A stretch of 39,731 bases of DNA. Origin: Candidatus Omnitrophota bacterium (GTDB taxonomy: Bacteria; Omnitrophota; Gorgyraeia; Zapsychrales; Zapsychraceae). Where the stretch lies: contig JAGQKV010000011.1 in the NCBI GenBank assembly GCA_020429915.1, forward strand, positions 100,804 to 140,534. Reading direction: 5' to 3'. The position numbers and the translations under genes were made by a program. Below the pieces are notes generated by a model. The model made no database searches. It was not told the DNA's origin and was given only the letters and a program-made list of their open reading frames with translations. The first letter of the stretch is position 1. Every line of letters starts with the position of its first letter. Shown here piece after piece: positions 13,762-39,731 of this stretch.

Positions 13762-16700
13762 TTATTTGCGCAGGCTGAGCTGACCGGCCGCGGCGGGATC
13801 GCTCCCGCCGAGCAGCAACGGCAGATTGGTGATGGGAATAACGTCAATAATGACCGGGGTATATCCGGTCGCGGCCGGTTCCGGCACATCGGCCGTGCCG
13901 GCCGGCTGGTACAGGAACCGGTCGCCGGCGACATTCAGACGAAGATTAGCAGCGTTCAGATCGATCCCCCCCTTGGTGAACTCATCCGCCGCGACGTCGC
14001 CTTCCAGGGCCCGGCGACGCAGTTGATTCCGGACATAGACAAATCCGGCCCCGGCCGCCAACGCACCGATCAGGACCGCCGAAGTCGAAGCCAGCACGGC
14101 ATTATCGGCCCCGACTCCGCCGCGCAGCAACTGAAGGTGCTCCTCCAATACTTCCGGTGCAATATTGCTGAAGACCTGGGCGCCGCGTTGTTGCAGCAGA
14201 CCGTACAGGGCATTGTGGCCCATACCGCGCAGGACGATCACGCTCACGTTATTGTCCGCCCCGATCTCAGCGGTGATATCGTCTGCCAGTTTGTCGTCGC
14301 GGGCCAGCCGGTCTGTGGCCGTGGTTTGTCCACGCAAGGCATTGAGGACGACCTCCACCGGCGGGGCCTCGTAACGCAAACTGATGTCGAAGCCGTCGAT
14401 AAAGGCGCGGCGGGCCCAGTAACGCATAAACGGATCGGTGACCGCTCCCCCCCGGCGGTGGATATCAGCAAAGTCCACATCGGCCAGCCCGGCGGCCTTG
14501 CGGGCGACATCAGCCGCGTAGCGTTCCCGGAAAGCGGCCTCTTGTTCGGGATTACCGAGGATCGCATCCGCATCGAGCAGCGGGTACTGATTCGCAAAAT
14601 CCTCCCGGCCGGTAATAAAGGCGTCTTCATAATACACAACCACCCGGCGCCCGTACTGCCGGGCACGCGCGAACACTTCGTCCAGACGCGATTCCGATGA
14701 GGCAAAATGATCGTCCGAGCGCAGACCGTCGTATTCGGTGAAATGGGTCCCGAAGAAGAGATTGATATCCGCCTGCGAAGCGTCAATCGTTTCACTGAAC
14801 GGCGTCTCTTCGAATTGGCGCCCGAGCAGCATGACCGTATCCGCAAATGTGCGGGCGGGCAGCGAGGCGACCGCGAGAGGAGTTAAAGCCAGATACCGTA
14901 AGAACGCCCGCCGATCCATGCCTAACCGGTTTCGCCCCAGCACGGCGCTGTCGGATGCGGCGCCCGGAATGGATAATGTCCGGTCCGTCTCCGGCGCCTC
15001 GATGCCGATATTTTCATAACCGGGTTCAACACCGAGCGAAAAGTAGGCGGCAAGGTCATCGGATACCGCTGCCCCGATCGCCAGGACCATCAAGGCTCCG
15101 CCCGCGATGAGCAATCCGACTCCGCGCCGGAATTCCTGCTGCCGGACGACCAGCGCATTTCCCGTTCGCCGGGTCTCTACAAAAAACTCACCCTGGCTCA
15201 GCCGCTCCCGCACCGCGCCGTCATCCTGCAGCGACGCTGCGATCGCGCGCAACTGCGGCGCATCAAGCCGCAGGAGTTCGTTCAGCAAGACGTTGACGTT
15301 GTCCAGGGCCTCCACACCGCGGCCGATGCGAAAACCGTCCAGACCGACCCTTCCCGCCAGCATGGTAAAGATATTTTCATAGGCGGCTTGGTATATGTAG
15401 TCGAGGTCGGAGGCCTGTCCGCGCGCGCGATAGTACAAGTAGTTTGCCAGCACATCAAAGAACGCCAGAAACGGCGTATCCGTTTGCGCCATGGAAGCCA
15501 AATAGGCTGAGACTTCCTGGGCGATATTCCTGCGGACTCCGATCAGACCCTGCGCGAATCCCTCCGCCTCATCCCGGTTGTGCTGACGTTCGTGGACGGC
15601 CAGCGAGCGGTATACCTTATCGAGTATCTCTTCGATCTGCCCGGCATCGGGATTGGGCGGCAGGTCTTTTAAGAGAATCGCACGCAACTGCTCATTGATC
15701 GGGTGTTCTTCCTGAAAAGGCTGAGTCTCAAATGAGGCGCCGCGCAGGAACGGCAGAATAGTCTGGAACACGGAGTCCCGTTCGCGTGATGTAAAGATAT
15801 ATCCTTCCGCGTGACCGACCGGAGCGTACCCGGAATACCCGGTGGTATCGTCCAGAGCGTCGATCTGCTCGCCCAGGATGTAGATCACACCGGGATTCCC
15901 CGCTTCATCCAACGGTCCTTCGGTATCCACTTCGGAACGGAGAATATTGTAGGAACGGACCGCGATCACTTCCTTCTCTATTCCTTCGAGCGAACTGTAA
16001 CGGACGTCGGCCGACAGTTCCACAAAGATATTCTCACGGCGCAGGTATTCGTTCTGCGCCAGGGCCCGACGCAAGTTTTCCAACCGGGCGGTCTCGCCGA
16101 AGACATGGCGGGTGCCGCTCAACACCTCACCCAACTGGGACGCCAACGTCGGTTCCAATCGTCCGAGAGCCGCTGTGAGTGTGTCATACATGGCAGGGGT
16201 GGTGACTCCGTGGGCATGCGCGATCAAAAATTGCGGCAGCATTTCCGAAAGGTATATCAACGTTCTTTGCCGCAGGTCCGGCGCCGTGGCCATCGCCGTA
16301 TCGGCTTCGTTGATAGCGGCGGCGTATTCCTCGACGGTCGGACGGAAGGCCACCACATCTATCCTGTATTTGTCGATGCCGTCCCCGTACACAATAGCCT
16401 GTTGACCGGCGTCCACGCCCACGGCAAAGCCGGGTATGCTCACGGGGATTTCGGGAAGCTCTCCCCTGCGGCGCTGTAATCGCAGCAGTTCACCCCGGCG
16501 CACTTCGCGGACCGGTCGATCATCCAGTCCGCTGTCGATATCCGCAGACTCACCCAGTATCGCCGCGTCGACGGTGCGGCCCGCACCTCGGACCCGCACC
16601 CGCACGACCGATTCGCGCCCGGTCAAAAGACGTTCGTTGACGGTCAGATCTTCACGCCGCCCCACACTCGCCGTGCCGCGGATACCGCCGGAGAAATACT

Positions 16701-17769
16701 TGCGCGGGACCATTTCCCGCGTCTGCTCGTCGAATTCTTCCTTGATGTAGTTGTAAACACCTTGCTCAAAGGCCTCCACATACATCCGATAAATCTTTTC
16801 CTTAATCGCATTGTCCTCGAGGTCGATTCCGTCGATGGCATTGCGGTTCGCGTATCCCCGCGCAAAGACACTCTCGCGAAGATTCTGCTTGAACCAGGTG
16901 GCCAGGATCATGGCGCTGAAAATCTGGCGTAAATTGGCAAAGTTCTTTCCCGTGTTGACTTCACGCTCGATTTCCGGAATGAGGACTTCGCGGATCACCT
17001 CCTTGGCTTCGCGGCTGATTTCTTCACCCTGTTGCTCTTCCTTGTCGCCGATGCCATGACGTGTGTGACCCTGGTTGCTCTCCAGGGCCAGATAATCTTC
17101 CTCGAGCATGACCTTGAGGTAATTGTCCACGACAAACACCGTATTGTCGCGGACAAATACGTTGGCCTGTTCGGGGACGATCCATACCTTATGAAACGTG
17201 TTGACCGGAATATCGGTGGTCCCGTAACGTGCCTGGGCCTTGGCGTAAATGCGCTGCCAGAATTCGTTCCCCAACTCTTCCTCGGGATACATCAGCGTCG
17301 CGGTCAGCTGTTTGAGGATATAGTCCTGGGCCAGCAAATCCCGCCCCAGGGCGGTGCGGCCCAGGCCGTCGGCTATGATTCGGTTTTCCTCGTACGGAGA
17401 GAGATTGACCCACATCTGATCTTCCGGGACCGTGACCGATGCCATGAAATACCGGATCATCCGATCGGCCTCGGCGCGCAATTCGTCGCCGCTAAGGGCG
17501 TCCTCTCCGGGATCCACGATGAAATCAAATTGAAACGGATCAACCGGATTGAGGGCAATCCCCTTAAGCATCGCCGGCGTGTAGGCGCCGCTCGTGGCCA
17601 CCATGGTTCCCGGCTGCGGCAGGCCTGCAAACTCTCCGGCGTATCCCGGGCAGGTCAATTGGCCGACGAATACGGTGACGACGGTCAATATTGCGGATGC
17701 CTTATGCACAGACCTTCTCAGCATTCCAGCTAGCTCCCGTTGAAAATGTATGGAATCAAATTTAATCAT
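13762..17769 (-). CDS. Giant secreted multidomain protein A (1335 aa)
   Basis: A signal sequence lies in residues about 20-45. Residues about 50-370 are the shared N-terminal domain (MWVNLSPYEENRII, LMYPEEELGNEFW, HKVWIVPEQAN, VPRKYFSGG). Residues 726-730 read HERQH with E752 downstream in QEVSAYL, a zincin-like HExxH arrangement. A membrane-type stretch lies near 890-915. At 951 an internal Met begins DRRAFLRYL plus a hydrophobic run ending TFA, like a Tat signal. The domain after it (LFFGTHFTEYDG, VSVIVLRGMGHNALYGLL) faintly recalls TraB/Tiki-type proteins. Another membrane-type stretch (VLIGALAAGAGFVYV) and the GGIDL...TNLPLLLGG block end the chain. The start ATG overlaps the stop of giant gene B by four bases. 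Function is unknown; I infer an envelope or outward role. Confidence 0.85.
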   Translation of the reverse strand: MIKFDSIHFQRELAGMLRRSVHKASAILTVVTVFVGQLTCPGYAGEFAGLPQPGTMVATSGAYTPAMLKGIALNPVDPFQFDFIVDPGEDALSGDELRAEADRMIRYFMASVTVPEDQMWVNLSPYEENRIIADGLGRTALGRDLLAQDYILKQLTATLMYPEEELGNEFWQRIYAKAQARYGTTDIPVNTFHKVWIVPEQANVFVRDNTVFVVDNYLKVMLEEDYLALESNQGHTRHGIGDKEEQQGEEISREAKEVIREVLIPEIEREVNTGKNFANLRQIFSAMILATWFKQNLRESVFARGYANRNAIDGIDLEDNAIKEKIYRMYVEAFEQGVYNYIKEEFDEQTREMVPRKYFSGGIRGTASVGRREDLTVNERLLTGRESVVRVRVRGAGRTVDAAILGESADIDSGLDDRPVREVRRGELLRLQRRRGELPEIPVSIPGFAVGVDAGQQAIVYGDGIDKYRIDVVAFRPTVEEYAAAINEADTAMATAPDLRQRTLIYLSEMLPQFLIAHAHGVTTPAMYDTLTAALGRLEPTLASQLGEVLSGTRHVFGETARLENLRRALAQNEYLRRENIFVELSADVRYSSLEGIEKEVIAVRSYNILRSEVDTEGPLDEAGNPGVIYILGEQIDALDDTTGYSGYAPVGHAEGYIFTSRERDSVFQTILPFLRGASFETQPFQEEHPINEQLRAILLKDLPPNPDAGQIEEILDKVYRSLAVHERQHNRDEAEGFAQGLIGVRRNIAQEVSAYLASMAQTDTPFLAFFDVLANYLYYRARGQASDLDYIYQAAYENIFTMLAGRVGLDGFRIGRGVEALDNVNVLLNELLRLDAPQLRAIAASLQDDGAVRERLSQGEFFVETRRTGNALVVRQQEFRRGVGLLIAGGALMVLAIGAAVSDDLAAYFSLGVEPGYENIGIEAPETDRTLSIPGAASDSAVLGRNRLGMDRRAFLRYLALTPLAVASLPARTFADTVMLLGRQFEETPFSETIDASQADINLFFGTHFTEYDGLRSDDHFASSESRLDEVFARARQYGRRVVVYYEDAFITGREDFANQYPLLDADAILGNPEQEAAFRERYAADVARKAAGLADVDFADIHRRGGAVTDPFMRYWARRAFIDGFDISLRYEAPPVEVVLNALRGQTTATDRLARDDKLADDITAEIGADNNVSVIVLRGMGHNALYGLLQQRGAQVFSNIAPEVLEEHLQLLRGGVGADNAVLASTSAVLIGALAAGAGFVYVRNQLRRRALEGDVAADEFTKGGIDLNAANLRLNVAGDRFLYQPAGTADVPEPAATGYTPVIIDVIPITNLPLLLGGSDPAAAGQLSLRK

Positions 17770-20700
17770 CGGTCCTCCGTCGCCCGGCTGAGGTGAACCG
17801 GCGCATCCTCATGCCTCCCCAGTAACGGCGCCAAAGTCGGCAGCGGCGTGATGCCGTGGATCTCCGGCATCAGGCCTTTGATGTTCATCGGCGGCGTCAC
17901 GGCGGTCCCTGCGGGCAGGTCCAAATTCACACCGGTTCCGCTGCGCTGCCATTGCAACCAGCGGGGATCCATGTCGATCCCCCCGGGATTCTCCGCCGGG
18001 ATATCGGCCGCCCCGACGATACCGTTGAGACGCCACCGCCGACGCAATTCCTCCGCAGCCGCGATCAGCGGATCTTCTTCGCCGTTGCGTTCGCGTCCGA
18101 TCATCTTCAGTTGATCGATATAGGCCTCCAGGAACTCCTTGCCCAGTTCTTTCTGTTCTTCGCGGCTCAGCCGGCTGGCGATAACCAGTCCGTCCTTGAT
18201 CTGCGGATCATTCACCATCGGTTCGATCTTCTGCGTAAGATCCGGCCGCAGTCGGCGCAACAATTCTTTGCTCATCACCCGCAGCCGCGTCTGCTGCATG
18301 AAATAGTTCCACAAGGTCTTTGAATTCCAGCCGCTAAGGCTGACGACACCGCGGACGACCGGATACGCGGACACGGTGAACAACCTTCCGGACTCGCTCT
18401 CGTCCATAAAGACCATTCCGGAAAACGGATATGTCCGGTGATCGAACAGATCGAGTTGTTCCTGTTCATTCAGACCGGCCACCACCGCGTTGAAGATCGG
18501 GACCACCGATTCGAGCCCCAATTCGTCCCGCAAATGAAACAGCAAGGCGATCGCGCGTTTGCGCACATTAAAGGAAGGATCGGCGAATTGTTCCCACAGT
18601 ATGAAGGTCTGCGGCGGAAACAGTCCCGCATGGACATCCTGCCACGGGACCTGACGAATATGCACCATACCTTCCTCCTGCATACGCAACAGCTCCCGTG
18701 TCAGCATCCGCTGGTAAAGCGGCTCACCGCCGGGACCCGACCGCTGTTCAAGACTGCGGCCGTCGCGCATCTGCCTGTCAATATTCTCTGCCAAGGACCG
18801 GCCCATCCCGAGGATCTCTTCCTTGGACAGCGCCTTAACCATGCCGCGCACATCAACCAAGGTCAGCCCGCCGCCGGCGGAGATGACCGCGTGGATCTTA
18901 TCCACGTCCTCGGCGCCGAAGTCCACCAGATCGTCCGGCTCCGGCAACGCAAATCCGGATTGTCCCGGGCGATTTTGCAAGTACACGTCATAAGCGTAGC
19001 CCGGCAGCAAATCCTGCGCGAGTTGAATTTTTGTCCGTTTATGCGCCGTCGGCCCTTTATGCAGCACCCACTCCTCGGTGCCGGTGAGCCGGAACAGGGC
19101 CACGGGCCCGTTGTGACGGTCAAGGACGCCGTCCCGAATCTGTGCGAGCATATCCGCGGTCGGCATCCGGATCCGCCGCATTGTCCCATCAGGTACCGAC
19201 GAATCATTGAAGTAATCGATAATCTTAGACAGCGTGTTCATCGGTTTTATACGCCGCCGGATCAACGTGATACTTCGCTCACGTTTGTTGACCAGGGCTG
19301 CGTTGATGCGTGTGAGTTGGTCCTGGCTTAGCGGATTCGGCCGCGGCGACGGCAGCGTGCGGTCCCGCCCCAAATGCAGATCAAGGACCTGATTGACGGC
19401 AGCCACTCCGTTTTGCAACGCCAGGCGTGTGTCATCCGGGTCGTTCAGATCCAGCACCGCGTTGATCTCCAGCGCCAGCGCATGCGCCGACTCGCCGTCC
19501 ATACCGCTTTCCAGGAGCACCACTTCGGTCAGTTCATGCAGCAAGTCGCCCAATACTTCCGTATCCATGGCAAAGAGACGGGAACGCGGAAAAAGTATCT
19601 TCAAGACTCCGTTGTGCCGGACAATCAGTCCGCCGAGGCGATCCCCTTCATCGGAAAGACGCCATTCACCTATGTTCACCGGGAGGATCCGATCCTGAAG
19701 AGCAAGCACCGCCAAATGATCGATCCCGCCGCGGACCAGCAATTGGAAAAACTTATCCAGCCGCGCCGTGTCCTCAGGCGTCCGCTTCAATTCCAGTTCG
19801 GTAAATACCCTTCCCCAACCGTACCGTTCGGCAACACGGCCCAGGCGCGCCTTCATGGCCGTGTACAAGACGCCGTGCCCGTCGTGCATCGCCCCGGCGA
19901 CGCCGTCGTCGGGATTAAAAGAGGGATATACGTCCACACCGACACGCAAATACCCTTGCCGATTGACGGCCGGAAGATCCTGACTGAGCGGCCGGGCATG
20001 GACGGTCAAGGGCCTATCCTGCATATCCATCCCGCCCGAGAAATACTTCCGCGGAATCGGCGAATGGGTGACCAGGTCAATATCTTCTTTGACGTAATTG
20101 TAAACGCCGCGCTGAAACGCCAGGACATAACGGTCATAGATAGCGGCATTCTCGCCGGCATTTGCGCCGGCGATACCCGCCGTCTTATTCTGATTGACGT
20201 ACGCCGCATGCAGCGGCGCCCCGGCCAGTTGAGTCTTGTACCACGTCGCCAGGATCATCGCGTGATAAATCTGACGCAGTGGCGCAAAGTGTTTGCCGTG
20301 ATTAACCTCACGCTCCAATTCGGGAATAATAACGTCGCGGATAACATCCGCGGTCATGGCTGGAAACCCGTCGCTGGTGGCCGTACCATTCGCCTGGCGA
20401 TCACGATAAGCACGCTCGGCCAGATAGTCCCCTTCCAACATGACCTTCAAACGGCTTTCCAGAATCAAGACCGTCCGGCCTTCCTCGTGAATGACAGCCG
20501 TCTGCGGCACCACCCAAACCTTGTTGAACGTGTCCATCGGGATCTCGGTGGTTCCGAAGTCGTCCCGTGCCTTGCGGTAAACTCGGTCCCAAAACTCTTT
20601 GCCGAGCTCTTCCTCCGGATACATGAGCGAGGCCGCCACCTGCTTCAGCAGATAGTCCTGCGCCAGCAAGTCCCTCCCCATCAACGTAAGGCCCAGAGAT

Positions 20701-21053
20701 TCGGGCATGACCCGGTCGGCTTCGTACGGCGAAAGATTCACCCATTGGTCTTGTTCAGGAATTGTGAGGGCGGAGAGAAAATAGTGGATTTGACGCAGGG
20801 CCTGGCCGTTCACCGTCTCGGGCGAATAGTCAGCGTGACCGGGATCCATTATGAATTCGATACGAAACGGCTGGGCGGGATCGACGATCATCCCCTTCAG
20901 ATAGGCGGGAACAAAATCCCGGCTGGGACCCACAAGCCGGCCCGGTTCGGGAAGAAAAGGCTGATCTGCAGCCGCATAACCGGCCCCGGTCAGCAGCAGG
21001 GCAACGGCACACAGCATCACCCCGTTGCAAATATGTCGAATAGTATTAATCAT
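17766..21053 (-). CDS. Giant secreted multidomain protein B, tandem paralogue of A (1095 aa)
   Basis: The signal peptide is MINTIRHICNGVMLCAVALL and following, cleaved near residue 30 (GYAAADQP). Residues about 35-340 match the N-terminal domain of giant protein A closely: WVNLSPYEADRVMPESLG, LMYPEEELGKEFWDRVY, TFNKVWVVPQ, PRKYFSGGMD. A middle region has HELTE (506-510), a degenerate counterpart of the HERQH in A, within LLHELTEVVLLESG. The remainder is mostly helical and unassigned. The C-terminus has GGIDMDPRW and then HGITPLPTLAPLLG, a divergent copy of the shared C-terminal block. The start at 21053 is used because the predicted -10 box overlaps an upstream in-frame ATG at 21101. The gene runs into giant A through an ATGA overlap. 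Confidence 0.85.
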   Translation of the reverse strand: MINTIRHICNGVMLCAVALLLTGAGYAAADQPFLPEPGRLVGPSRDFVPAYLKGMIVDPAQPFRIEFIMDPGHADYSPETVNGQALRQIHYFLSALTIPEQDQWVNLSPYEADRVMPESLGLTLMGRDLLAQDYLLKQVAASLMYPEEELGKEFWDRVYRKARDDFGTTEIPMDTFNKVWVVPQTAVIHEEGRTVLILESRLKVMLEGDYLAERAYRDRQANGTATSDGFPAMTADVIRDVIIPELEREVNHGKHFAPLRQIYHAMILATWYKTQLAGAPLHAAYVNQNKTAGIAGANAGENAAIYDRYVLAFQRGVYNYVKEDIDLVTHSPIPRKYFSGGMDMQDRPLTVHARPLSQDLPAVNRQGYLRVGVDVYPSFNPDDGVAGAMHDGHGVLYTAMKARLGRVAERYGWGRVFTELELKRTPEDTARLDKFFQLLVRGGIDHLAVLALQDRILPVNIGEWRLSDEGDRLGGLIVRHNGVLKILFPRSRLFAMDTEVLGDLLHELTEVVLLESGMDGESAHALALEINAVLDLNDPDDTRLALQNGVAAVNQVLDLHLGRDRTLPSPRPNPLSQDQLTRINAALVNKRERSITLIRRRIKPMNTLSKIIDYFNDSSVPDGTMRRIRMPTADMLAQIRDGVLDRHNGPVALFRLTGTEEWVLHKGPTAHKRTKIQLAQDLLPGYAYDVYLQNRPGQSGFALPEPDDLVDFGAEDVDKIHAVISAGGGLTLVDVRGMVKALSKEEILGMGRSLAENIDRQMRDGRSLEQRSGPGGEPLYQRMLTRELLRMQEEGMVHIRQVPWQDVHAGLFPPQTFILWEQFADPSFNVRKRAIALLFHLRDELGLESVVPIFNAVVAGLNEQEQLDLFDHRTYPFSGMVFMDESESGRLFTVSAYPVVRGVVSLSGWNSKTLWNYFMQQTRLRVMSKELLRRLRPDLTQKIEPMVNDPQIKDGLVIASRLSREEQKELGKEFLEAYIDQLKMIGRERNGEEDPLIAAAEELRRRWRLNGIVGAADIPAENPGGIDMDPRWLQWQRSGTGVNLDLPAGTAVTPPMNIKGLMPEIHGITPLPTLAPLLGRHEDAPVHLSRATEDR

Positions 21054-21091
21054 GTGAATTAATATAAGTATTATTGCGATGGGGTGTAAGT

Positions 21092-21120
21092 AGTATACCA
21101 TTCCTGCGCGGCCGTGGCAA
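21092..21120 (-). promoter_or_regulatory. Promoter of the giant-gene pair
   Basis: TTGCCA (21120-21115), a 17-base spacer and TATACT (21097-21092). Predicted transcription start is near 21085, about 32 bases before the ATG at 21053. I see no Shine-Dalgarno in this AT-rich leader. Confidence 0.55.
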
Positions 21121-21170
21121 AAAAAGTGCGCTGCTCGGAATATCGTCGTAATGCGTTTTGTATTATTGAT

Positions 21171-21581
21171 TTACGCTTCTGAAAAGGGGCGGTTGAGTTC
21201 GCGGAGGGCGTCCGCTTCGCAAGTAAACACCCGGAAGGTGTCATCCTGCTTGAACATGTCCAGCAGGACCCTGAGCTTGGCGGAAGGATTCACGAATCCA
21301 ACCTTGAATCCGCGGGCCTCATACTCCTTCAACCGCACGAGGTGAAAGGCGACGGTGGCGGAGTCTACATCTTCCACCAGCGCATAGTCGATCAGAACAT
21401 TTTTGTCGATCGTGGATCCGGCCCGGCGATTGAGCTGAATCCTCTCTTCGATCTGCGGAATCATCTCCCGATCGATCACACCTTTGAGGCGAATAACATC
21501 CACGAATTCCATTTCGTCGATGCGTTCCAGGTAAGCGGGTTGTGATTTTGACATACGTTGGTCAAACGGGAGGTCAGACAT
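21171..21581 (-). CDS. STAS-domain protein, anti-sigma-factor antagonist type (136 aa)
   Basis: The chain follows a STAS fold: FVDVIRLKGVIDREMIPQIEERI (about 25-47), then DKNVLIDYALVEDVDSATVAFHLVRLKEYEARG (about 59-91), with the conserved Asp-Ser-Ala-Thr turn where the phosphorylatable Ser of SpoIIAA-like proteins sits, then KVGFVNPSAKLRVLLDMFKQD and FRVFTCEADAL. It probably switches a partner kinase or sigma regulator by phosphorylation, but no RsbW-type kinase is nearby. The start at 21581 overlaps the end of the FAD oxidoreductase gene by eight bases; an ATG at 21554 is an alternative. The two genes are translationally linked, though a functional link is not evident. Confidence 0.75.
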   Translation of the reverse strand: MSDLPFDQRMSKSQPAYLERIDEMEFVDVIRLKGVIDREMIPQIEERIQLNRRAGSTIDKNVLIDYALVEDVDSATVAFHLVRLKEYEARGFKVGFVNPSAKLRVLLDMFKQDDTFRVFTCEADALRELNRPFSEA

Positions 21582-22611: not shown

Positions 22612-22666
22612 GAGCAGTCGCCAACGGTACGGCCAAAATTCTATAGGTTTAACACATCACGCACAC

Positions 22667-22696
22667 ATCATATACTCGAAATTTAATTATAATCAA
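22667..22696 (-). promoter_or_regulatory. Promoter of the FAD oxidoreductase/STAS pair
   Basis: TTGATT (22696-22691), an 18-base spacer and TATGAT (22672-22667), within an AT-rich gap. This leaves a leader of about 50 bases. Confidence 0.45.
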
Positions 22697-22773
22697 TTCG
22701 GCGGGAAAATACAAAGACAAATATGGAGGGGACGTATCTTTAGCGCTGAAAAGGCTTTGCGTGCCAGGCGGAC

Positions 22774-23010
22774 TCAATTGTCGGAGACGCGTTTCCCCTC
22801 CTCATACTGACGGACGATTTTGAGCGCCTCCGTGCGGTCGTCATCTCGCACCATCAGCCGGGCACCGCCCTGACCGAATACGTGGTGAGGCGCAATCGCA
22901 GCCAGGGTATCATTGAATACTACCGCCTTGATGCCGTATGATTCCAGGAGCGACTGCATAAAATGCACTTCATTGATGCGGTGCGACGTATAGACCGCGA
23001 CCAATTCCAT
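22774..23010 (-). CDS. DUF2007 putative signal-transducing protein (78 aa)
   Basis: The sequence MELVAVYTSHRINEVHFMQS, then LLESYGIKAVVFND, then GARLMVRDDDRTEALKIVRQYE matches the small DUF2007 domain (a ferredoxin-like alpha-beta fold of about 70 residues). Members are small soluble proteins of undefined role, often called putative signal-transducing proteins. It begins three bases after the rhlE stop, so it belongs to the FMN-reductase/rhlE operon. I see no terminator after it. Confidence 0.8.
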   Translation of the reverse strand: MELVAVYTSHRINEVHFMQSLLESYGIKAVVFNDTLAAIAPHHVFGQGGARLMVRDDDRTEALKIVRQYEEGKRVSDN

Positions 23011-23013
23011 CGT

Positions 23014-24300: not shown

Positions 24301-24318
24301 GAAATTCCTGTCTTCCTT

Positions 24319-24900: not shown

Positions 24901-25018
24901 CGATTTACGCTCCTTTATAACGCGTGAGGACGCCAAGCATGTATGGCATTATGACAGAGCCGCCTTAAATGTCAATTGCGGCCTTGTCCGGGAAGGCTCG
25001 TTGTTTTCGGTACGGCGT

Positions 25019-25046: not shown

Positions 25047-25052
25047 GATCCT

Positions 25053-27833: not shown

Positions 27834-27887
27834 GTTACATTCTGACAATCCTCCGGCAGGCCACCGCCCCGGGACACCGGACAGTGT

Positions 27888-30008: not shown

Positions 30009-30014
30009 CTACGG

Positions 30015-32711: not shown

Positions 32712-32768
32712 GCGCGTCTGGATCGCCTGAGTTCAATCGCCCGCCGGACAACGGCGGGGTACGGAGAA

Positions 32769-33218
32769 TTATTTTGCCGTTGAACCGCTCGGCTTGAGCA
32801 GTTCGTCAATCTTGCGTTTTAGTTGTTGGTTGTCGAAAGGCTTGGCCAGTATCCCGTCCGCCTGCAACCGGGCGATATTCTCGGGATGCTCATAATCAAT
32901 AACGCCGGAAACGATCAACACCTTAACGCCTTTAGCCAGATTGTCGTTCTTAATGGCTTTGCAGAGCTGAAAGCCGTTGACACGCGGCATCCGCAGGTCG
33001 AGGATAACTAGATCCGGTTGTTGCTGGATAAATTTCTCTCCGGCCTGGATTCCGTCATAGGCGTAATCGATGTCGAACCGGCCGTCTAATCGCAGAAAAC
33101 GGATCATGGCCTTCACCATGGACTCATCATCATCCACGATGAGTATTTTCTTTTTGGGTGGTGCTACGGATGTATCCATCTTGATCATTCCCGTACCCCG
33201 TTTGGATGTGTTTGACAT
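32769..33218 (-). CDS. Single-domain response regulator (CheY-like, 149 aa)
   Basis: The receiver domain is complete: acidic pocket ILIVDDDES (D29-D31), phosphoacceptor D74 in VILDLRMP, the Ser in LIVSG, and K126 in LAKPFD. There is no DNA-binding or enzymatic output, so it works by protein contact. It leads the operon with the Cache/PAS kinase, the LOV protein and the esterase. An extended -10 (TGT-TAAAAT, 33231-33223) ends four bases before the ATG at 33218. If that is the promoter, translation must start at 33218 without a leader or at a later Met (33188 or 33179). Confidence 0.88.
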   Translation of the reverse strand: MSNTSKRGTGMIKMDTSVAPPKKKILIVDDDESMVKAMIRFLRLDGRFDIDYAYDGIQAGEKFIQQQPDLVILDLRMPRVNGFQLCKAIKNDNLAKGVKVLIVSGVIDYEHPENIARLQADGILAKPFDNQQLKRKIDELLKPSGSTAK

Positions 33219-33257
33219 TTATATTTTAACACTTATTTCACGTTTTGCGATTTATTC

Positions 33258-33539
33258 TTATTCATGGCCCGCGCACGGGCCTTGTGGCCGCCGTTCGGCC
33301 ACTCGCTCGCGCAGGGATTTTCGTTCATCCTCGGTCAGCGCGTGAAACGGTATCCCGCGCACCGCCCCTTCCAAGGCCCACAATAAGTTTAACGACGGCT
33401 TGATACCCAGATCACAAACCCGGCCGTAGGCCTCCACCGCGCCGATTTTCTGCAAGTCGTCTAAGGTCGTAATACCGGCCGCCGCCAGCCACTGGCCGGA
33501 GACCGGACCGATGTTTTTCATACCGCCGGGATCGCTCAT
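33258..33539 (-). CDS. TfoX C-terminal domain protein (93 aa)
   Basis: The sequence MKNIGPVSGQWLAAAGITTLDDLQKIGAVEAYGRVCDLGIKPSLNLLWALEGAVRGIPFHAL closely follows the TfoX C-terminal domain, a helix-hairpin-helix-like fold (about residues 7-70). Full TfoX/Sxy, the competence regulator, has an extra N-terminal domain that is absent here, as in many stand-alone members. The role of stand-alone members is unknown. It is transcribed alone, just upstream of the response-regulator operon and divergent from the acyltransferase gene. Confidence 0.85.
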   Translation of the reverse strand: MSDPGGMKNIGPVSGQWLAAAGITTLDDLQKIGAVEAYGRVCDLGIKPSLNLLWALEGAVRGIPFHALTEDERKSLRERVAERRPQGPCAGHE

Positions 33540-33639
33540 GATGACATCCTACCACAGCCGGACCGCGAGGCAAACATCCGCACGGGATAAAAGTCGTCCC
33601 GTCGTGAAAATCTTGACAGGTACCCACAAAAAAGTTACG

Positions 33640-34320
33640 ATGAATGGCATTTTACGATCCCGTAAACCCAATGCAGCCGTGATCAGACTTATCAGGAAAT
33701 CCCCCATCATCATTGCCAATCTTTGGCGGGGCCTTTGCCAGGCCGTTCGCGATGGAATCCACTACATTGTTGTCTATTTCCCGGGCCTGACCGGGAAAAA
33801 ACTCCGTTACCACTACTATCGTAAACGCTTGAAATATATGGGACAAAACGTCCGCATCGATCCCGGCGTCTATTTTCAACATCCGGAATTGATCTCGATC
33901 GGAGACAACTGCTGGATCGACTTCGGTGTCATGCTCCTGGCCAGCAAGCCCAATCCCCCGCAACCGAGCCGACTGCTGCGCGGTAAGAATCAGGAACTCG
34001 AAGGCGAAGTTATTCTGGGAAAGAATGTTCACCTGGCACCGTACTGCAACGTATCGGGAATGGGCGGACTGAAAATCGGCGACAACGTGAGCGTCGGCAG
34101 CATGAGCAGTATTTACACCTACACCCGTATCTCCAGCCGCCCCTCCGTCCACTACTGCAACGGTATGGTTATCGAAGATGACGTCGTCATCGGGACGAAG
34201 TGTACCTTAATCGGCGTCCCACACATCAAAGCGGGGTCCGTTGTACAACCCAACACCTATTTATCGGAAGTGTTCGGTAAAAAACCGACACAACCCCCCC
34301 TAAGAGGATTATCGCCATGA
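33640..34320 (+). CDS. Hexapeptide-repeat (LbH) acyltransferase (226 aa)
   Basis: The C-terminal 150 residues form a left-handed beta-helix with hexapeptide turns, e.g. GQNVRIDPGVYF, ISIGDNCWIDFGVML, VILGKNVHLAPYCNV, LKIGDNVSVGSMSSI and MVIEDDVVIGTKCTLI. This is the fold of O-acetyl/acyl transferases acting on sugars. The N-terminal 70 residues are basic and helical. The partner ACP gene overlaps its end, so the donor may be an acyl-ACP instead of acetyl-CoA. There is no clear ribosome site before the ATG at 33640; a TTGACA at 33613-33618 would put a -10 box over that ATG, so a GTG codon further on could be the real start. Confidence 0.78.
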   Translation: MNGILRSRKPNAAVIRLIRKSPIIIANLWRGLCQAVRDGIHYIVVYFPGLTGKKLRYHYYRKRLKYMGQNVRIDPGVYFQHPELISIGDNCWIDFGVMLLASKPNPPQPSRLLRGKNQELEGEVILGKNVHLAPYCNVSGMGGLKIGDNVSVGSMSSIYTYTRISSRPSVHYCNGMVIEDDVVIGTKCTLIGVPHIKAGSVVQPNTYLSEVFGKKPTQPPLRGLSP

Positions 34321-34565
34321 ACGAAGAAGTCTTTTCCATTATCAGCGCGGTGATGGAAGTCCCCCTGGATGATATTTCGGAAGACGCGACCAAGGAAACG
34401 ATCGCCAATTGGGATTCGATGCGTCAACTGAATCTCGTGTTTGCTCTGGAGGATCAATTCGGCGTCAAGTTTGCCGACGAGGATATCCTGCGGATGAACG
34501 GGGTGCGCGACATCCTGGACGCCCTGGGCCGCATAACATCCGGTGAGGTCGTTTCCGGCAGCTAG
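34317..34565 (+). CDS. Acyl carrier protein (82 aa)
   Basis: This small acidic four-helix protein has the phosphopantetheine site in NWDSMRQLNLVFALEDQFG; S34 is the attachment serine of the DSM variant of the usual DSL. The length matches dedicated ACPs. It starts inside the stop of the acyltransferase gene (ATGA overlap) with GAGGATT upstream. It probably loads a specific acyl group for that acyltransferase, in lipid, glycan or secondary-metabolite decoration; no fatty-acid or polyketide synthase gene is in the window. Its 3' end meets the converging GT-C/TPR gene with a four-base overlap. Confidence 0.9.
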   Translation: MNEEVFSIISAVMEVPLDDISEDATKETIANWDSMRQLNLVFALEDQFGVKFADEDILRMNGVRDILDALGRITSGEVVSGS

Positions 34566-36559
34566 TTCCCACCCAGCGCCGCCTGCCACATACGCACATA
34601 CCGGCCCGCGCCGGCATAGCCCAATTCATACGCCCGCTCCGCATCCGCGTGAGCCTGTTTGAACTTGCGCCGCCGGCCGTAATAGAGGGCCCGGTTTAAA
34701 TGCGTAATCGCCAATTGGCTGCGCGTCTGTGCCGTCTGTGGCCGGGACAAGTACAAATCTATGGCCCGGTTGTAGTCTCTTAATGCCGCGTCGGGCCGGC
34801 CCAACTGATATAGCAAGTTTCCCCGATTGTTATAGACTACGGCGTACGTCGGATCCAGCCGGATCGCGGTGCTGAAGTCCTCCACCGCCTTGTCATAACT
34901 CTTCATTTTCTTATAAACGATACCGCGGTTGTTGTAGGCTTCGGGATACTCCGGATTCAACCGGATCGCCTCCGCGTAGTCCTCCAGGGCCCGACGGTAA
35001 TCCCGCAGATGCCGCAGTGCGTTGCCCCGGTTGTTATAAACATCCGCCAGCTTGGGATTGTATCGCAAAGCCGCGCTGTAATCGGCCAGGGCCGCCGGAT
35101 AATCCTGCATCTGAGCGTACACCTTCCCGCGGTTGTGATAGGCCCGGGCCAGTGCGGGATCCAGCTGAAGCGCACGGTCGTAGGCCCCCACCGCCTCGGT
35201 GAACTCGCCCCGCTCCGTATAGGCCTGACCGAGCAGGAGCCACGCCCGCGGTTTGGCCGGCGATTTCCGGGTGACATCCGTCCACAAACTGACCGGATCC
35301 CTCCAAACCTGATTGCGTTGAACGCAAAGCACCCCGAAGGTCATGACGATAATCGCCATCGTCGCCACAAAACGACTGCGTCGCGGTAATGCCACGGCCA
35401 TCAGCGCAGCTAAGGCGAGACAAAATCCCACCGAAGCCACATAGAGCTTATGCTCGGCAATGACGTACCTCCGCGGTACCAGATGCGACGCCAGGGATAG
35501 AAAGAACCAAAATATTCCCAATGCCGCCGCCCGCTGAGTTCGCCAGAGTCTGATCCCGGCCGCCAGCAACGCGATCAAAACGATCCCCGAACCGATCACG
35601 GCCGGATCCGCCAGGGTCCGCGACAAGGGAAAATCATACTCCAGATTTTGGCTCACCGGAAAGAACAGCAGTTGCAAAAACTTGGCAAACACGCGGATCT
35701 GGGTCATGAGATAACCCGGCAGCGTTATGATATCGCCGTGATGCGATGAGGACGGCCGCGGATGAAACAGCACCTGCGGACGGAATGAGAAAATCCCCGG
35801 CACAATCAGCATCACCGGAACGATCGCCAGCAACCAGCGGGCCAGCTCCCCCCACTTCAAACGAACGCCGTCCTGAAAAACAGCGAACTCGTACAGGATT
35901 AAAATTAACGGCAGGGTCATCACAAATTCCTTACTGAACATCCCCATCACCGCGCAGACCGCCGCACCGACAAAGAACATTCCCGCCCGTCCGCCGCGTC
36001 CGGCGCGTTGCGACTCCCGTCCGGCAATGTATTCCATCACGCATAACAAATAGAACAGCGTCGCCAGCGATGCAAAGCGCTGAGTAATATACGTGACGGC
36101 CTGCGTCTGGACGGGATGCGCGACAAAGATCGCGGCCGCGATCCAGCCGATGATTTCAGGACCCAGACGTTGATTCGGACCTGAGCGCGACGTACGGCTC
36201 ACTGCGTGAGCGGCGATCCCCCAAACACACAAAGCATTGGCAATATGGATCAGGATATTAGTCAGCCGGAAACCCGCCGGATCGTAACCGCTGATAGCAT
36301 AATTCAGCGCAAAAGAATAAAAAGGAATGAAGCGGCTGGGTTGACTGAGATTTCCCCAGATCGCCCCGACGTCCGCCGGGTCGCGGATGCTGGGATTATT
36401 GAGAATGAAATCATAGTCATCAAATTGAAACGGGGCGTGCAGCACCGGCCCGTAAAGCAGCGCGGCCAAACAACACAGTAAAAGCGCTCCGACCGTGCGC
36501 CGGACAGCCGTACTCCTGACCGGCCGGGAACGCGAAGTTATGCGGAGGGAATCAGGCAT
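34562..36559 (-). CDS. GT-C membrane protein with C-terminal TPR array (665 aa)
   Basis: Residues about 25-420 hold nine or more membrane helices with an early FQFDDYDFILNNPSIRD (about 54-70), the acidic pair used for catalysis in the TMTC/PMT-like GT-C family. QTQAVTYITQRFASLATLFYLL and KLYVASVGFCLALAALMAVAL fit that family too. Residues about 440-640 are about six tetratricopeptide repeats with the signature LG.AY..RG....A...Y..AL.LDP. The combination resembles TMTC-type O-mannosyltransferases and bacterial TPR GT-C proteins. It would glycosylate a protein or lipid at the outer face of the inner membrane. It lies 93 bases downstream of the third large gene on the same strand. The first ATG is 36559. 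Confidence 0.82.
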   Translation of the reverse strand: MPDSLRITSRSRPVRSTAVRRTVGALLLCCLAALLYGPVLHAPFQFDDYDFILNNPSIRDPADVGAIWGNLSQPSRFIPFYSFALNYAISGYDPAGFRLTNILIHIANALCVWGIAAHAVSRTSRSGPNQRLGPEIIGWIAAAIFVAHPVQTQAVTYITQRFASLATLFYLLCVMEYIAGRESQRAGRGGRAGMFFVGAAVCAVMGMFSKEFVMTLPLILILYEFAVFQDGVRLKWGELARWLLAIVPVMLIVPGIFSFRPQVLFHPRPSSSHHGDIITLPGYLMTQIRVFAKFLQLLFFPVSQNLEYDFPLSRTLADPAVIGSGIVLIALLAAGIRLWRTQRAAALGIFWFFLSLASHLVPRRYVIAEHKLYVASVGFCLALAALMAVALPRRSRFVATMAIIVMTFGVLCVQRNQVWRDPVSLWTDVTRKSPAKPRAWLLLGQAYTERGEFTEAVGAYDRALQLDPALARAYHNRGKVYAQMQDYPAALADYSAALRYNPKLADVYNNRGNALRHLRDYRRALEDYAEAIRLNPEYPEAYNNRGIVYKKMKSYDKAVEDFSTAIRLDPTYAVVYNNRGNLLYQLGRPDAALRDYNRAIDLYLSRPQTAQTRSQLAITHLNRALYYGRRRKFKQAHADAERAYELGYAGAGRYVRMWQAALGGN

Positions 36560-36652
36560 ATCATCACCATAGCCGCTAAACACCGGGGTGTCACGCACTA
36601 TCTCACCGCTTTGGTAAGTTTTAAACAATCTTATCTTTGGACGACACCGGGA

Positions 36653-39600
36653 TTACCGGTTCAGGCGGGACATTTGCGCGAAAGGCATCTCCGACGGCAA
36701 ATCATTTCCATCCGCAGGCGGCACGGAAGGACCGGCCGCCACCGGTTGCGGAACGGGTTTCTGAGCGGCGCCGATCAAAAGGGGCAGATTGGTTACCGGT
36801 TGAATGTTGATGATAACCGGAATCAATCCGTCGAGACGGATATTTTGCAGCTGCCGGTCATCGACCGGGACCGCCATACCGGCCGAATCGCGGCGGACCT
36901 CAATGTTCAGACGTTCCGCGGTCAAATCGATCCCCCCGACTTCTTCGGGGCGGCTGAGCACGGCGGAATCGCGTTCGCCGGATTGATCCCTACCGGACGG
37001 CAAAGCCGTGTTAATCAATTCACGCCGCGCGAATTCGCGAATGGGTCCGCGGAATACCATAGAGCCGTCCGGATTTTGAGCGTAAAGCGGATAGTCCTCC
37101 TTGATTACGGCCTTGGCCAGATCAAACTCACCGGTTTCCTCGTTGTAACCGGTCAGGAAACGCGCCGTCAGGATGAACATGTTCACACGCACATCGCCTT
37201 TTTGATCGGCGTACTCCAAACTGAGCGGGCTCTTGAAGACGATTTCCGCTATCCCGCGCTCTGTTTTCTTGAAGAATGTCCCGCGCACCATATTGTTGGT
37301 CAGCCCCAATTCTTTTCCAAACAGCTCGGCATGCCCGACGCCCTTCGGCCCGGTTAACGGAAGAATGTCGAAAGAAGAGGAATCGAGACTTCTGGGAGCG
37401 GGCAGGACTCCGAATACCAGCGATCCCTTCTCCTCCGTTCGTCTGATCTGGCGATTCCAGCGCCGCGCCTGCGTGGATATATCCTCAGAGAACTGCCAGC
37501 GGTTGCCCGTCACCGCGTCGAGAAACTCGAGTACGCGCTGCCGGCTCAATACCGCCTTGTCGCTTTCGGCGCCAACGGCGACTTCAATCCCGCGCAAACC
37601 TTGACCGGCCAGCTCTCCCAGCGTGCCGTCAAACACGACCGTATCCGGGCCGCGCCTGACGGACAGCGCGACGACTTGATTAAGCAATCCTTGCTGCCCG
37701 TTGAACACTCCGGAGACGGCATCGTAGCCGGACAGATAGCGTGCCGCCAGGATCAGCTGATTCCATTCCAAGTCCGATACGGTTTCGTTACGGCCAAACT
37801 CAGCCGGCGACTCCAGGATCAATTGTGCCGGATTACGCCGGGTCGCGGCCGTATAGACACCACGGACCATCCGGTCGGTGACAGCCCCGTCGCTGCGGAA
37901 CATAGCGTCATAGGGATTCTCCCGGTTCACCTCTCCCAGACTGATAAGAGTATTGGCCATGTTATCCCAACGGGGCACGATCCCCAGACCGATAAAATCT
38001 CCGCTGCCCAGCCGACTGATTCGGCCGCGTAGCGTTGCGATCCCCTGACGGCCGCTCCCGTCGGTCTGGTAGAGACGGGACACATTCGATTGAAAATCCA
38101 GCTGCGCCTGCGCAGCGGCCGAAACGCTTTCGCGTTTACGTTGGAATCGCTCATACAGCAGTGGCATGCCGGTCGTCAAATCCAGCGAATAATGTCCGGT
38201 CCGCCGTTCGTCCTGCTCTCCTTTAAAGCTGTACCCCACATCGGCACCGATACTCCGGTAAAACGTGCTGGCCCGTTGCTCTAACGCGGCGTTGGCAAAG
38301 TCCAGCTTCCAAAAGGCATGTTTGATACGACCTTGGGAATTCCGGATTGCCTGGTAGTAAGCTTGGTACAAAAGCCATGCCGCGGCCTCGGTTCCCCGCA
38401 GATGTGGCGCTACGACAAAATCATCTCCCCGCACGGAATCTTCTCCGACGGCATATAGCAGCCGGTAACCGACCGGTTTTCCGGTACTGTCGATAATCGC
38501 AAAGCTGATATCATCATCCATGCGACGCTCACTCAGCGGTCGTGAATTAAAACGCAAAATGCCTCCCGCCAGCCTTTGATACTCGGGATTCGATATTAGT
38601 TCTTGTCGTGACAACGGGGCCAACCGGTAGCTTTCTCCGGCAATCTCCAAAACATTCGGCACTTTCGCGAGCAGCGCCTTGTCTCCGTTCGCAAGGAACA
38701 GCCGCTCCGGCAGGATCAAACTGAACTCGGCACCTTCACCGCGGTTGCGATTGGCGGCCCGGATCTCCATTTCGCGTTCGGCGGCGGATTGATATAAAGT
38801 CAGCAGGCTTGTCCCCTGACCGCCGAGATAACGCAGGCGGTCGACAGCCTTGCCTGTCTCTTCAGGTGTGAAGGCACGGCTTCCGATGTCCGCGATCAAG
38901 GCCTCGTTAATCCCCTGTCCGTTATCCGTTACCTTAATGACGATCGCGTCGCCCGAACGGCTGACCTCGACGGCGATACGTCCGCGTTGGTAGTCCGGCC
39001 CGAACTTGGCCTGAATGCCGTCGAGCGCATTGGTGACGAGTTCCCTTACATAGGGTCGCGTGAAATCGAAATCCAGCCCGTCCTGGATCGGCTCAAGAAA
39101 CCGCACCACTTCCCGGGTTACCGTCTGGGCCAGCCGGTAGTACAACGCCCACTGCACCTCTTCGGGAGTGACCTGGTCGGCGGGACGGGCCGTCCCCAAA
39201 TACGTCCGGTAATAAACCTGAACGGTCTCAACCAATGACCGCCACTCGGGCGCCTGGATCCTGTTCAGCTGAACGGTCGTCTTGCCGGTATTGACGATCA
39301 TCTGATCCAGCACCGCCAGTTTGTGCATCTGCCGGATGGCGTCGGCCTCATCCGGTTGGGCCCCGATTTCATTGAGCAGTTTCGTCAACACCTGGCGGGA
39401 AACCAATGTCTTGCCGGTTTCCAACTGCGACAAATAAGCTTCGGTGATTTCCAGTCGTTCGGTCAGCTTATTCCAGGCCAAATGTTCCAGTTCCCGCTGA
39501 CGTTGCAGCCGCTGCCGGGCCTCTTCGTGAAACCTGTTGGGAACTTGGAACGCATCCAAGAGAGCCTCGTACGCCGTGTCGTCGAGAATTTCACTACCGA

Positions 39601-39731
39601 TATAAAGCGATTCGATCGTGGCCAGCGTCAGGCCGGTCGCCGCCGCAATCTCAGCGCGCGTATCGGTCTTTATCTGGGCCCTCTCCAAGGCAAACACGTA
39701 GGCGTTCGCGTTGCGCCGCAGATCACGCAGC
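36653..39731 (-). CDS. Large XRE/GHKL-ATPase/GNAT-like protein with the shared C-terminal block, 5' end outside window
   Basis: The frame is open to the right edge (it still reads LRDLRRNANAYVFALERAQ), so the N-terminus is missing. The visible part starts with two helix-turn-helix-like regions (TRAEIAAATGLTLATIESLY and EITEAYLSQLETGKTLVSRQVL), the second a clear XRE type. A GHKL/Hsp90-like ATPase follows (RELVTNALDGIQ, KVTDNGQGI, LGGQGTSLLTL). Next is a GNAT-like acyltransferase stretch (FVVAPHLRGTEAAAWLLYQAYYQAI, FYRSIGAD). About 330 unassigned residues follow. The last 100 residues contain GGIDLTAERL and VIINIQPVTNLPLLIG, the same block as in the giant secreted proteins. No signal peptide is visible. 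It looks cytoplasmic and regulatory. Confidence 0.75.
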   Translation of the reverse strand, partial: LRDLRRNANAYVFALERAQIKTDTRAEIAAATGLTLATIESLYIGSEILDDTAYEALLDAFQVPNRFHEEARQRLQRQRELEHLAWNKLTERLEITEAYLSQLETGKTLVSRQVLTKLLNEIGAQPDEADAIRQMHKLAVLDQMIVNTGKTTVQLNRIQAPEWRSLVETVQVYYRTYLGTARPADQVTPEEVQWALYYRLAQTVTREVVRFLEPIQDGLDFDFTRPYVRELVTNALDGIQAKFGPDYQRGRIAVEVSRSGDAIVIKVTDNGQGINEALIADIGSRAFTPEETGKAVDRLRYLGGQGTSLLTLYQSAAEREMEIRAANRNRGEGAEFSLILPERLFLANGDKALLAKVPNVLEIAGESYRLAPLSRQELISNPEYQRLAGGILRFNSRPLSERRMDDDISFAIIDSTGKPVGYRLLYAVGEDSVRGDDFVVAPHLRGTEAAAWLLYQAYYQAIRNSQGRIKHAFWKLDFANAALEQRASTFYRSIGADVGYSFKGEQDERRTGHYSLDLTTGMPLLYERFQRKRESVSAAAQAQLDFQSNVSRLYQTDGSGRQGIATLRGRISRLGSGDFIGLGIVPRWDNMANTLISLGEVNRENPYDAMFRSDGAVTDRMVRGVYTAATRRNPAQLILESPAEFGRNETVSDLEWNQLILAARYLSGYDAVSGVFNGQQGLLNQVVALSVRRGPDTVVFDGTLGELAGQGLRGIEVAVGAESDKAVLSRQRVLEFLDAVTGNRWQFSEDISTQARRWNRQIRRTEEKGSLVFGVLPAPRSLDSSSFDILPLTGPKGVGHAELFGKELGLTNNMVRGTFFKKTERGIAEIVFKSPLSLEYADQKGDVRVNMFILTARFLTGYNEETGEFDLAKAVIKEDYPLYAQNPDGSMVFRGPIREFARRELINTALPSGRDQSGERDSAVLSRPEEVGGIDLTAERLNIEVRRDSAGMAVPVDDRQLQNIRLDGLIPVIINIQPVTNLPLLIGAAQKPVPQPVAAGPSVPPADGNDLPSEMPFAQMSRLNR

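Follow-up and report, generated by a model that had tools for sequence, protein, structure and literature searches.

A GGID tail and a signal-bearing N-terminal domain bracket variable cargo in long proteins of one Omnitrophota order

Three large proteins encoded on a 39,731-nucleotide stretch of DNA from a Candidatus Omnitrophota bacterium (assembly GCA_020429915.1, contig JAGQKV010000011.1, positions 100,804 to 140,534; hereafter the window) end in similar sequence blocks, and the question raised by this locus is what such a tail is for. The Omnitrophota are uncultured bacteria. Blocks of the type GGID...PLLLG, first reported in an initial annotation made from the sequence, were confirmed at the three C-termini, at 13762-13974, 17766-17990 and 36653-36940. 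The tail co-occurs almost without exception with one N-terminal domain (NTD), the cargo between the two ends varies, and short linker motifs avoid the mapped enzyme domains. At a probability of about one half, we read the GGID tail as the C-terminal half of a two-part carrier around exchangeable cargo that acts outside the cytosol, where export is predicted, the destination is one that we infer, and any processing is speculative.

Two constant ends

A profile built from the three window tails finds 34 places in the bacterium's own genome (G000; 3.35 Mb, 94% complete), at E-values from 8.5e-35 to 0.015, and a better profile finds a thirty-fifth at E 1.4e-10. Each of the 34 sits at the C-terminus of a long frame (865 to 5139 amino acids, aa), and from the start of the match to the stop there are 52 to 153 residues. 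The initial annotation had suggested such a profile search, and its expectation of matches at protein C-termini in many copies per genome (34 at E <= 0.015 in the own genome) is borne out. An alignment of 33 of the 34 tails (A3; L043, with a long extension, was left out) shows a hydrophobic stretch rich in proline and asparagine, then a polar end. Reading these 33 tails, we found no C-terminal membrane helix with basic end of the LPXTG or PEP-CTERM kind, and there is no sorting model among the matches listed for the three window proteins. The DNA sequence GGGGGGATCGA is indeed identical in all three window tails; the window contains it exactly three times, where shuffles predict 0.13. Across the family, 19 of 35 tails carry exactly GGGGGGATCGA, and the remainder are mostly synonymous, such as GGGGGTATCGAT; because codon choice explains the identity, it calls for nothing special, and a mobile or regulatory DNA element was rejected as its source. 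One protein, L143, has an internal GGSDLNVKNMGLDI stretch at residues ~540-589 (tail profile E 0.055) that resembles the remnant of a second tail in mid-protein, which suggests a fusion of two family genes.

The proteins had been described as otherwise different, a view that does not hold. P0001 and P0002 share an N-terminal domain of ~330 aa (47% identical), and the third protein, P0003, has it too. The latter had appeared cytoplasmic, and a simple role in surface sorting or export had been discounted on that ground; its frame passes position 39731, and on the contig (L064) it reads as 2009 aa with signal and NTD, so that the apparent exception was an artefact of the window edge. A search with the first 387 residues of P0001 retrieves every one of the 34 tail proteins, aligned over ~330 residues at the N-terminus with E ~1e-99 or better, and an NTD profile finds 35 copies in the own genome, for an NTD-to-tail ratio of 35:35. 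The NTD alignments comprise 34 of the 35 own copies (A2; C2 was left out) and 59 of 96 NTD stretches from relatives plus two window rows (A4). A hydrophobic stretch lies upstream of the NTD in 35 of 35 own proteins and in 74 of 75 relatives, and a net-positive n-region flanks the hydrophobic core in all 35 own members; of 700 windows drawn at random from these proteins as a control, 40 pass the hydrophobicity threshold. Core and n-region charge together served to call an export-type signal. No Pfam or NCBIfam family scores above its cut-off on the NTD or tail of the window proteins, and no PDB sequence matches the NTD profile or the whole of P0001. An AlphaFold2 model of the P0001 NTD (pLDDT, the predicted local distance difference test, 84.3; pTM, the predicted template modelling score, 0.83) found no solved structure by Foldseek at E <= 0.001.

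Relatives of the NTD were sought in 84,980 species genomes, where at least 462 of at least 516 pattern matches encode one; the best 80 of the 462 were used. These derive from Omnitrophota or from genera placed there (Aceula, whose placement was confirmed, and Zapsychrus, presumably a genus within the phylum), except for six labelled only "bacterium" or "Planctomycetales" (L066, L068, L091, L098, L100, L132). Among closed NTD frames at the 80 loci, 74 of 81 carry the tail. For five of the seven that lack it (L072, L079, L094, L107, L132), a tail-only frame lies directly downstream, in a shifted frame or past a stop; the others are L121, which ends near a contig end, and L087, a fragment of 140 aa. 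Conversely, thirteen tail-only frames were found, seven open at the 5' end, five being the downstream partners just mentioned, and one (L086, 269 aa) unexplained.

Within the phylum, 286 genomes were scanned, with part of the first-look candidates scored per genome (77 candidates in G114). The tail was detected in 45: the window's order accounts for 35 (of 37 genomes) and the rest of the phylum for 10 (of 249), among which three have E-values of only 0.005-0.009. The NTD was detected in 90, which are the same 35 of 37 plus 55 of 249 elsewhere, the latter mostly weaker and without a detected tail. Neither end was found in G107 and G207, members of the order that are 95% and 91% complete. The suggestion of a new, widespread C-terminal element is supported as to novelty and, for one order of the phylum, as to breadth. 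Phages gave no NTD match, and the matches on plasmids were six Streptomyces records at 24-33% identity. A tail frame of 24,583 aa in G196 was dropped, as the frame lies in a stretch reading as N; frames of 7,500-33,000 aa elsewhere were given no weight, and the largest verified member has 5139 aa. Because the tail is always accompanied by the same signal-bearing NTD, these proteins are a single family by their two ends, an outcome the initial annotation had set against its own proposal, and many proteins by their middles. The dedicated protease or secretion gene that it thought might co-occur with the tail was not identified.

Cargo and linkers between the ends

Pfam scans of 34 of the 35 own proteins (C2 left out) and 61 relatives show that the segment between NTD and tail varies from protein to protein. 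The families named here are among the matches listed; for a set of 20 of the own proteins the listing covers the first 25 of 80 families, with per-protein tables for 10 of the 20, and for one scan of relatives the first 25 of 57. Own cargo includes histidine-kinase ATPases with helix-turn-helix (HTH) domains, a possible GNAT acetyltransferase, methyltransferases, a metallophosphatase, UDP-glucose pyrophosphorylase (UDPGP) with phosphoglucomutase (PGM), phosphoenolpyruvate carboxykinase (PEPCK), a phosphoenolpyruvate (PEP)-binding domain and a starch-synthase-like domain, and further pyruvate phosphate dikinase (PPDK), WD40 propellers, fructose bisphosphatase, a PGAM-type phosphatase, PALP, NUDIX, MaoC, a response regulator, HEAT repeats, an ABC1 kinase and an M48 peptidase. 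Relatives add phosphoglycerate kinase (PGK), phosphoglucose isomerase (PGI), enolase, triosephosphate isomerase, transketolase, debranching enzyme, phosphorylase, radical SAM proteins with a B12 domain, ankyrin and LysM, and have fructose bisphosphatase as well. Combined over all genomes and judged by these family assignments, the cargo spans many, though not all, of the steps that would lead from glyoxylate-cycle intermediates to glycogen.

Two chains illustrate the arrangement. A frame of 4075 aa (C25, L054) matches solved enzymes in series: branching enzyme (E 3e-190), two glycogen synthases (~2e-42 and 3e-43) and amylomaltase (1e-120). Its branching enzyme contains DGIRVD, AEEST and HDE, both glycogen synthases keep KVGG and the glutamate of PSxxEPSGLTQ, and the amylomaltase contains DHFR, AEDLG and THDN, all motifs whose residues we take to be catalytic. 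A second frame, of 3031 aa (C1, L047), holds malate synthase, class I aldolase and isocitrate lyase on a single chain. The isocitrate lyase retains KKCGH and SPSFNW, and its best PDB matches are chains of 540-560 residues, not those of ~434; the Schiff-base lysine of the aldolase is aligned, as are the serine and DxDxDR of PGM cargo elsewhere. As a separate observation, three cargo regions (in P0001, C30:141277 and C7:39959) have twin-arginine-like signals in their interior, in one case together with a lipobox-like LCSAC, and look as if entire exported proteins had been captured.

Cargo enzymes were compared with stand-alone copies in 36 genomes of the window's order. PGK stands alone in 34 of them (31 full, 3 partial) and occurs additionally in long frames in eight, one of which (557 aa) is ambiguous; all five long PGK frames inspected have both NTD and tail. 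In a PGK tree, 23 stand-alone enzymes form one group against eight from cargo (support 92/100), and a single clade of cargo PGKs was set aside, its grouping being unsafe because the cargo branches are very long. Glycogen synthase has a stand-alone frame in 32 of 36 genomes, plus one partial, and long-frame matches in 13, those of G000 being verified. In contrast, isocitrate lyase and class I aldolase are each found in two of 36 genomes, solely within long frames (1180-4340 aa) and never alone. The isocitrate lyase frame of G132 carries the tail and the aldolase frame of G121 the NTD; the aldolase family has a match in none of 14 control prokaryotes. Since these two occur solely in long frames while PGK and glycogen synthase also stand alone, the cargo is not simply a housekeeping set. 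A side observation concerns PGI: G115:C83 (L175, L225) has a classical-type enzyme in a 2027-aa frame, the order's PGIs that stand alone are short, divergent proteins, and G000 has no match to the family's model PF00342.

The 35 own proteins contain 63 copies of the motif D.A[VL]L, where shuffles give 10.5. Of these copies, 56 are followed by A, S, G, T or V, compared with 27 of 90 for A[VL]L lacking the D. Within the last 40 residues before GGI, D.A[VLMQAI] is present in 32 of 35 own proteins. When a looser form of the motif is placed on ten domain-mapped proteins, none of its 32 sites falls inside a domain, although domains make up 28% of residues (P 4e-5). Relatives show D.A[VL]L only 16 times against 7.3 and are enriched instead in D.AM (110 against 14.5) and SSP[VIL] (48 against 5.2), so the linker differs between lineages. 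These counts fit a lineage-specific linker, possibly a putative cleavage site. Two control motifs were scored against shuffles: L[VL]A.D is also in excess (26 against 10.2 own, 62 against 9.6 in relatives), probably owing to DLLAQD of the NTD, and A.D[VL]L gave 13 against 6.7 own and 9 against 8.7 in relatives. Hydrophobic segments follow linkers at 2 of 51 sites, compared with 40 of 2100 random positions; there being no clear excess, the two linkers that directly precede internal twin-arginine-like signals are cases and not a rule.

Weighing the readings

Distant homologues on Streptomyces plasmids bear on whether the two ends belong together. We inspected four of the six proteins (L235-L238; 773-816 aa; for example WP_121549542.1 and WP_251091514.1), which match the NTD profile at E 3e-26 to 2e-47; for one, hhalign gives 99.8% and E 2e-30. 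They read in the order export-type N-terminus (by eye), variable module, GG[IV]DFT strand, NTD core, GGVDFS or GGVDLSRLQLQ, and membrane anchor, which in two of three scanned proteins comes with an LAxTG-like motif that scores under the curated cut-off. The variable modules are, by eye, of two kinds, one deaminase-like (HSE..CTRC) and one nuclease-like, and the three proteins scanned had no Pfam match. GG[IV]D motifs flank the NTD directly on either side in all four, the first of them behind the variable module, and the tail profile scores these motifs weakly (E 0.015 to ~3). Because a GGID strand stands behind the variable module in both groups, and flanks the NTD core in Streptomyces, NTD and tail would belong to one carrier unit, and the simplest reading of the pattern is that this unit holds inserted cargo. 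The homologues further suggest that the carrier domain is itself a payload module of older origin. The segment after the Omnitrophota NTD was also scored with the tail profile: in the 92 of 115 proteins with a placeable border its mean is -23.5, against -29.4 at 561 other GG sites (P 1e-8), a score poor in absolute terms, so that a tail remnant at this place was kept as a hint only.

In the carrier reading, the N-terminal signal would take the entire chain out of the cytosol, the strands of the tail would fold back on or dock with the NTD, and the two ends would mark an intact chain for outer transport or anchoring. A protease may then cut at the linkers (in the own genome D-x-A-[VL]-L followed by a small residue), freeing cargo that ranges from one enzyme to four in series. 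The enzymes would then be at work beyond the bacterium's own cytosol; the likeliest sites are a partner or prey cell and a vacuole surrounding the bacterium. PGK, PPDK and PEPCK need nucleotides, which periplasms normally lack; because these enzymes and glycogen synthase need nucleotides or nucleoside-diphosphate sugars, the cytosol of a partner or a supplied vacuole is a more plausible site than the bare periplasm. That the organism keeps separate stand-alone copies of some cargo enzymes likewise points to action elsewhere.

Several observations weigh against this reading. A strict A-x-A/G follows the hydrophobic core in only 14 of 35 own proteins. Docking of the tail on the NTD was not seen in a model of a short relative of 690 residues, whose mean pLDDT is 55.5 (tail hairpin 621-640 ~80, most surroundings below 50). 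Half of the looser linker sites (16 of 32) adjoin the NTD or tail and lie outside domains almost by position, and for the 16 interior ones the chance value is, by arithmetic, ~0.005; the four-enzyme chain C25 has no such site between its enzymes, and in the 40 residues before GGI the tails of relatives show the D-x-A type in 29 of 71, SSP in 8 and neither in 34. As to the cargo, no Pfam match at E 0.01 was obtained for four of the 12 own proteins of the first scans, no Pfam family above cut-off for the middles of P0001 and P0002, and no PDB match at E 1e-8 for middles of 4249 and 4641 aa, which are among the longest. Part of the cargo has a degenerate look: some catalytic motifs (the UDPGP glycine motif, KxGG of L039, the PEP-C motifs of L059) were not found by regular expression, a weak negative because the same expressions missed the aldolase lysine and PGM serine that alignment shows intact. 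The PEPCK cargo loop reads GGKTN, and PGKs in cargo have much longer branches than the stand-alone enzymes, with GGGN in place of GGGD in one of them. Finally, the ATP/ADP translocase PF03219 is present in 36 of 286 genomes and in none of the 37 of the window's order, which speaks against a classical energy parasite; energy parasitism was therefore rejected.

A bolder form of the carrier reading appears doubtful: that the order exports much of a carbon-storage pathway to a partner or prey cell, from the glyoxylate shunt and gluconeogenesis to the synthesis and trimming of glycogen, as multi-enzyme chains inside a dedicated two-ended carrier. A protease would cut these chains at the D-x-A-[VL]-L linkers, and carbon of the partner would end up as glycogen for the bacterium. 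If true, exported polyproteins carrying metabolic pathways would be a category of their own.

The same cargo might instead serve the bacterium's own extracytoplasmic metabolism, the chains staying in the periplasm or in a membrane compartment, a counterpart of the glycosome or glyoxysome, with the bracket as compartment address. The bundling of connected-pathway enzymes on C25 and C1 would suit this alternative, as would the stand-alone glycogen synthase beside cargo copies and the lack of the translocase. We nevertheless hold it to be unlikely, given the nucleotide needs of PGK, PPDK and PEPCK, the occurrence of isocitrate lyase and aldolase in two of 36 genomes each, too patchy for a core compartment, and cargo that also comprises WD40, HEAT, ankyrin, HTH, histidine-kinase ATPase and methyltransferase domains.

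It is rather unlikely, too, that the middles are captured and decaying enzyme domains that have lost catalysis and form a variable body, structural or antigenic, carried by a conserved stalk, as in surface or adhesive proteins. The long cargo PGK branches and the catalytic motifs that went unfound would agree with decay, and the internal tail remnant of L143 and the three internal twin-arginine-like signals look like repeated capture and fusion; Omnitrophota giant open reading frames have also been viewed as possible adhesins or surface coat in the available text of PMC10066038. Yet the four-enzyme glycogen chain has the motifs looked for, KKCGH of isocitrate lyase, the aldolase lysine and the PGM serine and DxDxDR are retained, and random decay would not put connected pathway steps on one chain.

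It is also unlikely that the tail by itself, independently of the NTD, serves some outer-membrane system as a C-terminal signal for secretion or anchoring, as the C-terminal domain (CTD) of type IX secretion does. Its place close to the extreme C-terminus (34 of 34) and its constant company of an export-type N-terminus in the own genome would fit, but CTD-like signals are usually found on proteins that are unrelated and have no N-terminal domain in common, and in this family the two ends come almost 1:1. The type IX CTD has an immunoglobulin-like fold; the tail was modelled within the low-confidence whole-protein model of the short relative (mean pLDDT 55.5). SprA_N (PF14349), a marker of the SprA/Sov translocon of type IX secretion, matched in 0 of 36 genomes, and its control was also without a match, which makes the result uninformative.

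Comparison with known systems, and features of the window

By sequence, the bracket appears to match the general kind of exported modular carriers. Like polymorphic toxins and other modular effectors, it combines a constant export part with an exchangeable payload. In polymorphic toxins, which have an immunity gene next to them, a constant protein ends in the variable toxin module; the Omnitrophota payload, by contrast, is internal and largely of metabolic enzymes, and the constant tail is C-terminal in all 35. The likeness to type IX cargo, in which a CTD of ~70-80 residues sits on Sec-exported proteins, lies in a tail of 52-153 residues on proteins with an export-type signal (35 of 35). The Streptomyces homologues share with the Omnitrophota proteins the NTD homology, the export-type N-terminus and GG[IV]D beside the domain, and differ in their order (payload, GGID, NTD, GGVD, then a membrane anchor) and in having one small payload.

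In Chlamydia trachomatis, the accessible parts of three papers place glycogen synthase, branching enzyme and amylomaltase outside the bacterium (PMC4829429, PMC9251005, PMC3722199), as separate proteins lacking a signal peptide whose N-termini drive type III secretion, according to the portion seen of one of them (PMC4829429). Chlamydia, a member of the Planctomycetes-Verrucomicrobia-Chlamydiae (PVC) group, is therefore a precedent for exported glycogen metabolism. Of its secreted set (GlgA, GlgB, GlgX, GlgP, MalQ and the phosphoglucomutase CT295), the same three enzymes lie on one Omnitrophota chain (C25), and a PGM-like domain on another; the Omnitrophota enzymes differ in being fused, bracketed by NTD and tail, and preceded by an export-type signal in 35 of 35.

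Earlier papers already took note of giant multidomain proteins in Omnitrophota (accessible parts of PMC12057145 and PMC11573180). As far as the available text goes, one paper describes lipocone, polysaccharide-biosynthesis, kinase-receiver, peptidase, methylase and LysM domains and proposes prey-directed effectors (PMC12419801), and another calls the huge multidomain proteins poorly understood (PMC10066038). Shared with these accounts are the phylum, glycan enzymes, histidine-kinase ATPase with receiver, peptidase, methylases and LysM; in the portions of those papers that were accessible we found no mention of a shared NTD, GGID tail, linkers, or glycolytic, gluconeogenic or glyoxylate enzymes. 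At 865-5139 aa the bracketed proteins fall below the 20-kb class of giant open reading frames (Seymour 2023), and none of the published titles found on Omnitrophota (bioRxiv preprints lay outside this scope) concerns the NTD/tail bracket.

The two constant ends provide a handle for recognising one large class of long proteins in one Omnitrophota order, the linker motif helps to locate modules, and the kinds of cargo suggest central carbon and glycogen metabolism that takes place outside the cytosol. Should the enzymes prove to be exported and active, this would be a second PVC case of extracellular glycogen metabolism beside Chlamydia, with a far wider set of pathways. Features of the three window proteins are collected in Table 1.

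Table 1. Positions of the bracketed proteins and their parts in the window
Feature	Position	Strand	Basis or remark
P0001, 1335 aa	13762-17769	-	frame; complete in window
P0001 export-type signal sequence	17638..17769	-	hydrophobic core and net-positive n-region
P0001 NTD, ending KYFSGG	16684..17634	-	alignment A2, AlphaFold2 model
P0001 linker motif DSAVL(G)	14938..14952	-	motif scan
P0001 internal twin-arginine-like signal (RRAFLRYLALTPLAVASLPARTFA)	14839..14916	-	starts 12 residues after D of DSAVL
P0001 linker motif DNAVL(A)	14092..14106	-	motif scan
P0001 GGID tail	13765..13971	-	tail profile, alignment
P0002, 1111 aa	17766-21101	-	frame; 4-base overlap with start of P0001
P0002 NTD	20013..20996	-	query P0001 N-terminus, alignment
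P0002 GGID tail	17769..17984	-	tail profile, alignment
P0003 cargo helix-turn-helix (PF13560)	39338..39514	-	Pfam
P0003 cargo histidine-kinase-type ATPase (PF02518)	38702..39052	-	Pfam
P0003 linker motif DKALL(A)	38669..38683	-	directly behind ATPase module
P0003 cargo possible GNAT acetyltransferase (PF13508)	38246..38503	-	Pfam, E 0.0016, below curated cut-off
P0003 linker motif DKAVL(S)	37547..37561	-	motif scan
P0003 linker motif DSAVL(S)	36956..36970	-	11 residues before GGI
P0003 GGID tail	36656..36937	-	tail profile; gene extends beyond window end (2009-aa frame with signal and NTD)

Two minor observations complete the description. Elsewhere in the window, at 7482-9146 on the minus strand, lies a gene for a 554-aa protein with MORN_2 repeats (E 1e-43). 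Within the family, HExxH occurs in six proteins, against 1.1 expected from shuffles, including P0001 near residue 726 (HERQH); these sites are possible metallopeptidase modules, and one of the six, the C9 protein, also matches M48.

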